Shown: positions 45,787-47,585 of the stretch, in pieces | How the letters are laid out: each line of letters opens with the position of its first letter | Position numbering within the stretch: position 1 is the stretch's first letter | Origin: an uncultured delta proteobacterium | Lineage (GTDB): Bacteria > Myxococcota_A > UBA9160 > JAFDET01 | Direction of reading: 5' to 3' | Assembly (NCBI GenBank): GCA_947259215.1 | Contig: CAMYLJ010000004.1 | Location: forward strand, 124,001-188,000 | DNA: 64,000 nucleotides | Translations under genes and position numbers: made by a program | The notes under the pieces: model-generated | The model's input: the letters and a program-made list of their open reading frames with translations, nothing else | Told to the model about the DNA's origin: nothing | Databases searched by the model: none

Positions 45787-47051
45787 TCAGGACGAACACG
45801 AGCCTCCTCCGACTCCGACCGCGGCGTCTGCCAACGCCCGCAGCTCCTCGGCACCCAGGTCCACGGACCGGATTGCCTCTGCGGCGAGCCGACGCACGTC
45901 GTCACATTCGAGCGCAACGGGCAGCACCATCAGGAGCCGCGCCGCGCGCTCGCCGATGCGCAGGAGCGCCGGACGCAGCTCGTCCTCCAGGTCGGGAGGG
46001 GCCGCCTCGCCGGCGGGCTCCGACGCCAGCGTCCGGCGCTGCACGGCCTTGGCGGCCTCGATCTGGGCGCGGAAGAAGGCGCGCAGGGCGGGCTCCGGGG
46101 GCACGGGCCGTCCGGCGGCGCGCGCCGCTTCGCGAGTGGCCGATACGCCCGCAGCGATCACGACTTCTTCCCGTGCGGGCGCCTCCACCGCCAGCCCGCG
46201 CGCGCGCTTGGCTTCGGCCACGGCAGGCATGAGTGCCAGGCGCTCGTCCAGCGCCGCGAGCAGGGCCGACAGCGGCGTCGCGCTCGGCGGCGCATCGGCC
46301 AGGCGCGGGAAGCGCGCGCGCCACGCGGCGAGCCGACCGTCGGCTTCTCGCGCCAGCAGCCACGCATCGAGATCCGCTGCCAGCGCCGGACGGTCGCTGC
46401 GCACCAGGTAGGCCTTGCGGTCGCGCGTGAAGGGGCCGAGAACCCGCAGCGGCGGCGCGCCGCGCCGCCACCAGCCGGCCTCCAGCGTGTCGCTGATCGC
46501 CGCGTCCGCCTCGCCCCCGAGCAGGGCGTCTCGCACCGCCAGGTTGGGTGTCAGGGCGCGGAGGCGCGCGTGGGGGAAGCGCGCGCGCGCCACCCGCTCG
46601 AGATGTCCGCCCCGGTTCACCGCCACCCGGACGCCCGGCGCGTCCAGGTCCGCCGGTTCGTCGAACGCGGACTCGGCGGGGACGAGGGCCACGGCGCCGC
46701 TCTCCGCCACGGGCAGCGTGAACCGGCCTGCCAGCGAGCGCTCCGGCCGCACCGTAACTCCGCTCATGGCCAGGTCGAAGCGGCCCGCGACGAGGTCGGC
46801 CACGAGCTCCGGCCAGCGGAAGGGGACGAGCTCCAGGGCGAGCCCGCGGTCGGCCGCGTAGGCCCGGGCCACCAGGACGTCGAAGCCGCCGCCGGGCAGG
46901 GAGGGCTGACTGAATGGCGCGTAATCGCCGCTCGTCCCAACCCGTAGCGACTCGGCTCCGGCGGCCGCTGCCAGGAGTCCCAGGACCAGCAGGACGGCCA
47001 GGTCGAATCCCCGGGGGGTCCGTGAGATTTGACCGAACCGCCCGATTTCAT
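45787..47051 (-). CDS. Periplasmic cyclohexadienyl dehydratase-chorismate mutase fusion (PheC-AroQ gamma); frameshifted near the 5' end
   Basis: Residues of the first domain follow the PheC/solute-binding pattern: LRVGTSGDYAPFS, WPELVADLVAGRFDLAMSGVT, VRVAVNRGGHLERV and ADAAISDTLEAGW. The last 140 residues are AroQ-gamma-like: ERLALMPAVAEAKRARG, then FFRAQIEAAKAVQRRTL. Together these would turn chorismate to prephenate and on to phenylpyruvate, or arogenate to Phe, outside the cytoplasm. From ATG 47051 the frame reads MKSGGSVKSHGPP; adding one base in the C/G run 47009-47018 joins it to RGFDLAVLLVLGLLAAAAGA, a perfect signal peptide. So the 5' end is broken as assembled. Family calls are by motif; the arrangement is uncommon. 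Confidence 0.8.
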
Positions 47052-47057
47052 TAGTAT
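47029..47057 (+). promoter_or_regulatory. Sigma70-type promoter of the cold-shock-domain gene
   Basis: TTGACC (47029-47034), 17 bases, TAGTAT (47052-47057) form one of the best promoters in the window. Transcription should begin near 47064. It overlaps the start codon of the divergent PheC-AroQ gene (47049-47051). Confidence 0.7.
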
Positions 47058-47067
47058 CTTTCGCTCT

Positions 47068-47096
47068 CCGGCCCCCCTGCGGGGCCGGTTTTCTTT
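47068..47096 (+). terminator. Intrinsic terminator inside the cold-shock gene's 5' leader (attenuator)
   Basis: CCGGCCCC (47068-47075), a CCTGC loop and GGGGCCGG (47081-47088) make a perfect eight-base-pair stem followed by TTTTCTTT. It lies only a few bases after the predicted transcription start and 22 bases before the ATG at 47118. No plus-strand gene ends here, so it can only act on the leader of the cold-shock gene. Confidence 0.7.
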
Positions 47097-47117
47097 CCCG
47101 CAGCGAGGTGCCGCGCC

Positions 47118-47585
47118 ATGCTCTCACTCGACGAGCTCGAAAACGGTCTGGCCGTCACCCACAAGAACACGGGGCTCCGCTACACGGTCGGCGACGTGGC
47201 GGAGGGCGAGGTGCTCCTCACCCCGGACGACAGCGCGCTCCAGGACCTGCTGGTCCCGATCGACCTGTTCCGGGCCGAGTTCGTCTCCAGCGACCGCTAC
47301 AGCGCCCGGCGGGGGGGGCGGGGGGGGCGACGCCGCAGCCCCCAGGCCACCCCGACCGGTCCCAAGGTGCGCGGACGCATCAAGAAGATGGTGCGCGACC
47401 GGGGCTTCGGCTTCATCCGGGGCGACGACGGCAAGGAGGTCTTCTTCCACCGTTCGGGCCTCGGCGCCGCCGACTACGACAACCTCTCCGAGGGCGACGT
47501 GGTCGAGTACCACGTGTCCGAGAGCCCCCGCGGCCCGCGCGCCGAGAACGTGCGCCAGGCGGCCGCCGAAGGCGCCGCAGGCTAG
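47118..47585 (+). CDS. Cold-shock-domain RNA-binding protein with N-terminal extension
   Basis: This is a 155-residue protein. Residues about 90-150 are a cold-shock domain: RGRIKKMVRDRGFGFIRGDDGKEVFFHRSGL contains RNP1-like (RGFGFIRGD) and RNP2-like (VFFHRS) motifs, followed by LSEGDVVEYHVSESPRG. The first 60 residues (LDELENGLAVTHKNTGLRYTVGD) form a separate small domain I do not recognise. An Arg/Gly linker (RRGGRGGRRR), encoded by two G8 tracts, joins them. Its leader contains a promoter and an intrinsic terminator; CspA-type proteins are known antiterminators, so it may regulate itself. The ribosome-binding site is weak (GAGGT 12 bases upstream). Confidence 0.85.
   Translation: MLSLDELENGLAVTHKNTGLRYTVGDVAEGEVLLTPDDSALQDLLVPIDLFRAEFVSSDRYSARRGGRGGRRRSPQATPTGPKVRGRIKKMVRDRGFGFIRGDDGKEVFFHRSGLGAADYDNLSEGDVVEYHVSESPRGPRAENVRQAAAEGAAG
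47311..47327 (+). repeat. Two adjacent G8 tracts in the cold-shock gene linker
   Basis: GGGGGGGG at 47311-47318 and again at 47320-47327 are separated by one C. They encode the Arg-Gly-Gly linker upstream of the cold-shock domain. A one-base slip in either would remove the domain from frame. Confidence 0.75.

Follow-up and report, generated by a model that had tools for sequence, protein, structure and literature searches.

The responses of Escherichia coli cspB and cspG (cold-shock gene) fusions to a rho mutation are those expected if transcription terminates in the 5′UTR or the ORF (PMC7815308). The cspB and cspG leaders resemble the one analyzed here in belonging to a cold-shock gene, the early transcription of which is reportedly limited by termination, but they are Rho-dependent, whereas the present leader carries a hairpin and U-tract of the intrinsic type, at which transcripts would end at about +30. 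The cold-shock protein gene cspA of E. coli also has a structured leader, and it regulates itself; its leader acts on translation via a thermosensor (PMC9947658), whereas the leader described here is ~54 nt long and has one hairpin. In the AlpA system of Pseudomonas aeruginosa a terminator beginning 26 bp from the start site was found to be functional (PMC7969949). AlpA promoters are similar to the present one in having an intrinsic terminator, here a putative one, near the start and between promoter and gene (from +26 for PA0807). They differ in that the antiterminator loads at the promoter there, while neither a factor nor a binding element of that sort is known for this locus.

CspA, CspC, CspE and CspD of E. 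coli are reported to relieve intrinsic termination (PMC9765468), whereas CspB and CspD of Bacillus subtilis favour termination at several sites (PMC8307031). In these systems, as suggested for this locus, cold-shock-domain (CSD) proteins alter read-through at intrinsic terminators, but the terminators are those of other genes and the effects have opposite signs; action of a CSD protein on its own leader was not seen in the available parts of these sources. A stable stem a few nucleotides from the 5′ end, as predicted here, is found in stabilising stem-loops of the ompA/papA type (PMC3997798), but the stem described here directly precedes UUUUC.

The CSD gene studied is located in a window of 64,000 nt (the whole stretch of DNA that was analyzed) of an uncultured member of the Myxococcota. 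Its leader element, a hairpin with a U-tract, belongs to a known general kind. The element is real, is conserved in close relatives and exceeds chance expectation. Judged from sequence, attenuation of transcription is tentatively regarded as its likeliest function in the family to which the window belongs.

The CSD gene, its protein and its neighbours

The gene encodes a protein of 155 amino acids in which Pfam places a CSD at residues 85–147 (E=5.8e-17). Membership of the classical CspA/CspE family was ruled out with the NCBIfam csp models, the best score being 55 bits for a cut-off of 120 and below every csp cut-off; it is a longer CSD protein and not CspA, CspC, CspD or CspE. The nucleic-acid-binding aromatic residues of the CSD are present, and the RNP1/RNP2-type residues F97, F99, F109, F110 and H111 do not vary among 50 orthologues. 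Some of these presumably match the melting residues of CspE. Nearly all genomes of the order were found to encode the protein, against 0 of the ~230 sampled elsewhere in the phylum (E≤1e-18).

The N-terminal ~62 residues (window positions 47118–47305) are well conserved, and structure prediction with good confidence gave a small barrel. Neither Pfam nor the PDB gave a convincing sequence match for this domain. Foldseek returned weak KOW/SH3-like matches, among which Spt5 and MutS2 (best E 0.037), and the whole chain weakly matched aIF5A (SH3-like plus OB). From these models it is possible that the N-terminal domain is SH3/KOW-like.

The upstream neighbour is a divergent gene on the minus strand (45787–47127) coding for an SBP_bac_3 domain joined to a type II chorismate mutase, and the downstream neighbour is a convergent NAD synthase gene. 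The gene order is the same in those related genomes that could be read. Since the upstream neighbour is divergent and synteny is kept in the relatives read, no plus-strand gene requires a terminator at 47068–47096, and a terminator of the upstream gene is ruled out. The divergent protein is perhaps an exported cyclohexadienyl dehydratase-chorismate mutase fusion. Its gene has no in-frame ATG, GTG or TTG close to the signal-peptide-like segment, and its closest in-frame start overlaps the start of the CSD gene.

Promoter, hairpin and U-tract of the leader

An earlier note on this DNA had described a CSD gene preceded by TTGACC-N17-TAGTAT, a perfect 8-bp hairpin and a U-tract ahead of the ATG, with no upstream plus-strand gene in need of a terminator. 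All of these features were found in place (Table 1). The pattern TTGAC-N16-18-TAnnnT occurs upstream of 60 of the 74 distinct orthologous regions, nearly always as TTGACC with a spacer of 17, and because of this conservation the promoter call is considered secure. The pattern was counted once in 4 kb against 0.0 in shuffles. In the sister genus the -35 element is weak.

Table 1 Features of the CSD gene and its leader (window positions)
Feature	Position	Strand	Remarks
-35 element TTGACC	47029–47034	+	sequence; pattern upstream of 60/74 orthologues
-10 element TAGTAT	47052–47057	+	17-nt spacer from -35; TATACT in sister genus
Predicted transcription start	47063–47065	+	predicted from -10 position (6–8 nt past hexamer)
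Hairpin CCGGCCCC-CCTGC-GGGGCCGG	47068–47088	+	perfect 8 G-C pairs, about -17.7 kcal/mol; arms CCGGCCCC 47068–47075 and GGGGCCGG 47081–47088; loop CCTGC, 5 nt
U-tract TTTTCTTT	47089–47096	+	directly after stem; TTTTC invariant in family
Alternative stem CTGCGGG / CCCGCAG	47077–47083 / 47097–47103	+	mutually exclusive with terminator hairpin
Shine-Dalgarno-like GAGG	47105–47108	+	ahead of ATG; GAGG(T) likewise in many orthologues
CSD gene	47118–47585	+	ORF encoding 155 aa; ATG at 47118
Protein domains	47118–47585	+	~62-aa N-terminal domain, Arg-Gly linker, C-terminal CSD (85–147)

The stem begins 10 nt after the -10 hexamer, and 21 nt separate the end of the U-tract from the ATG. With the predicted start, 3–5 nt would be left ahead of the stem, which would begin at about +4 to +6, and the U-tract would end at about +32 to +34. 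A G/C-rich hairpin with an immediate U-rich tract is the sequence signature of an intrinsic terminator, and its location between promoter and gene, behind no other gene, is that of an attenuator. On both strands of the 64-kb window no second hairpin with at least 8 G-C pairs directly precedes TTTT, and 60 dinucleotide shuffles of the window, which like all shuffles used here preserve dinucleotides but not genome context, yielded 0 hairpins with at least 8 G-C pairs plus TTTT. Rfam gave no match at E≤0.5 for this leader or for three other leaders.

Hairpin-plus-U sites are scarce in the genome itself. In the 382 kb surveyed (L130–L145 and the window) 17 were found, mostly weak and few of them near gene ends, ruling out a common terminator type of this genome. 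A strong hairpin-U combination between promoter and gene stands out because such sites are rare in these 382 kb; this scarcity is notable for the leader element but does not demonstrate its function.

The alternative stem of the window competes in the full-length leader (stem probability about 0.34 at equilibrium), can form only after read-through, and was not seen in the other three family genomes. Upstream of the U-tract, where just 3–5 nt are predicted to precede the stem, no antiterminator structure or factor site was found.

Conservation in the family and across the order

The family was sampled with four genomes of two genera, and 57 other genomes of the order served for comparison. Each of the four family genomes has a single copy of CCGGCCCC-N3-9-GGGGCCGGTTTT, always just upstream of the CSD gene, and the distance from -10 to stem is 10 nt in all of them. 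A repeated element is ruled out by this single copy per genome. The two genera share every base of both arms (16 sites) and of TTTTC (5 sites); the loop, of 5 or 7 nt, is neither conserved nor U-rich, and the flanks differ too between the family genomes. The identity of these 21 sites points to selection, as fourfold-degenerate sites of the CSD gene show 49–61% identity between the two genera. Compensatory arm changes are absent in the family, so that the pairing itself is unproven by covariation. Terminator scores of the d'Aubenton-Carafa type were positive in all four genomes (53, 43, 33 and 33), and the U-tract of G002 and G003 is just UUUUCCGU. Recurrence of the hairpin in related genomes, on which the earlier note had made its reading depend, was thus observed within the family, where the element is conserved with the gene in 4/4 as expected of an attenuator. 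It did not extend further: the exact hairpin with TTTT was found in 0/57 other genomes of the order, where other promoter-proximal stems are enriched.

Across the order the first 40 nt of the leader (from 6 nt after the -10) were found to be more folded than shuffles, with a mean z of -0.83 over 40 genera (p=7e-5). This value is the mean of genus means, an averaging that lessens relatedness without removing it, and the order-wide leader statistics are contingent on the promoter rule applied. Values near zero (0.12, -0.05, -0.06 and -0.12) were obtained for the windows lying upstream and for those farther down the leader, the coding-region window gave -0.29, and the genome's 18 other TTGACM-N17-TAnnnT sites had a mean z near 0. 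The early structure is therefore considered a property of the CSD gene leader; a general trait of promoters with this pattern is unsupported by the 18 other sites, none of which has a hairpin plus U-tract. Strong early stems without U-tract were seen in the first 40 nt at three of these 18 sites (near position 1500 of the loci L148, L147 and L161), and the genes behind these resemble, by eye, rpsP, panB and the gene of a rhomboid-like protein.

The T content following leader hairpins across the order was at background level (0.192 vs 0.186), indicating that the general feature outside the family is structure and not termination. Terminator-like leaders numbered 6 of 63, against 0.64 expected from shuffles, and four of these six are those of the family of the window; past the family a hairpin plus U-tract was found only in the single genomes G026 and G064. 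The U-tract is conserved only in the family, and a 5′-terminal stem is common across the order. Structure at the very 5′ end of the CSD mRNA is a separate, testable regularity of the order. In family f8 of the order, most leaders (L014, L017, L027, L029, L030, L031, L112 and L115) harbour a GTTTCTG-like motif ~13–14 nt past the -10, possibly a separate leader element.

Proposed attenuation and competing readings

Computation shows that the element is present, unique, conserved and constant in spacing, that the promoter is deeply conserved and that throughout the order the first 40 nt carry excess structure. For the start site, termination of RNA polymerase at the element, the terminated fraction and any regulation, we infer the following. 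The CSD mRNA would start at about 47063–47065 with 3–5 free nt, a stable G/C hairpin and then UUUUCUUU. Hairpin and U-tract of the family would form a promoter-proximal intrinsic terminator of partial strength, and a fraction of the transcripts would stop at about 47092–47096, giving RNAs of ~30–34 nt. The remaining transcripts would pass into the CSD gene, keeping the hairpin as a structured 5′ end, and the element would trim the output of a strong housekeeping-type promoter. Partial termination would be the straightforward prediction, given the general response of polymerases to signals of this kind. The terminator scores of 33–53, the fixed placement throughout the family, the 21 invariant sites and the excess of terminator-like leaders over shuffles argue for attenuation, and by analogy with the +26 terminator of P. 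aeruginosa (PMC7969949) closeness to the start need not be prohibitive. Early termination on csp genes has a precedent in E. coli cspB and cspG, there by Rho (PMC7815308). Against attenuation are the constant distance from the start site, which a terminator does not need and which is expected of a 5′-end element, the short U-tract of G002 and G003, the order-wide start hairpins without T enrichment and, in the full-length leader of the window, the competing alternative stem, though the latter forms only after read-through. If the element terminates transcription, a CSD gene of uncultured Myxococcota would have an intrinsic attenuator lying unusually close to its promoter, and this would put to the test whether CSD proteins control terminators of their own, as has often been suggested from work in E. 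coli.

The main rival, which is possible though somewhat unlikely, is that the near-terminal stem blocks 5′-end-dependent decay of the RppH/RNase E type, like 5′ stem-loops of E. coli, with the U-run either fortuitous or offering a single-stranded site to the CSD protein or the ribosome. The few unpaired nucleotides predicted ahead of the stem and the 10-nt spacing from the -10 in 4/4 genomes are as expected for such protection, and a 5′ hairpin is known to hinder RppH and to stabilise mRNA (PMC3997798). Furthermore, the first 40 nt are structured order-wide while other windows are not, and a start-proximal hairpin recurring across the order without U-tract points to a more general 5′-end role. 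However, TTTTC is kept after the G/C stem in both genera, and the termination expected from it is a cost that a pure stabiliser avoids. A DNA-level operator, in which the inverted repeat at about +4 to +24 binds a dimeric repressor, would agree with a perfect repeat just past the start having invariant arms in two genera, but it is very improbable in view of an unconserved spacer of 5 or 7 nt, a one-sided U-tract and a repeat with TTTT occurring once per genome. Many stems form in GC-rich DNA, but that the hairpin is a functionless chance palindrome is hardly credible with 0 of such strength in 60 shuffles and identical spacing in four genomes.

The candidate attenuator of the earlier note is retained in so far as the element is terminator-like, conserved in the family and apparently placed for early termination. 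Its autoregulatory part, relief of the attenuator by the encoded CSD protein, was not supported. That this protein melts the hairpin or otherwise antiterminates its own gene, possibly with cold, is a minority view that we consider unlikely. It draws on the lowering of intrinsic termination by CspA, CspC, CspE and CspD of E. coli (PMC9765468), on the invariant residues F97, F99, F109, F110 and H111, and weakly on the possibly KOW-like N-terminal domain. It is doubtful because a switch requires that a competing structure or a factor site be available ahead of hairpin formation, and the 3–5 nt predicted before the stem are too few for an alternative antiterminator helix and hardly enough for loading of a cold-shock protein. 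The loop is unconserved and U-poor, a stem of 8 G-C pairs is able to form on leaving the polymerase, and the orthologous protein is conserved order-wide whereas the U-tract is not. B. subtilis CspB and CspD are reported to promote termination (PMC8307031), whereas the E. coli proteins lower it, so that the sign of an effect cannot be presumed. The encoded protein may control read-through, but nothing in the sequence points to this. It may also be speculated, at a still lower probability, that RNA polymerase picks up the order-specific KOW-like/RG/CSD protein at the promoter of the protein's own gene and is thereby allowed past a terminator just ~30 nt from the start; the protein would then be an antiterminator that loads itself, in a lineage poor in intrinsic terminators.

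The sampled DNA of the uncultured Myxococcota carrying the putative attenuator has few such terminators. The small number of hairpin-plus-U sites near gene ends suggests reliance on other termination in this genome, and an ORF resembling Rho by eye was seen behind one of its consensus promoters (L154).
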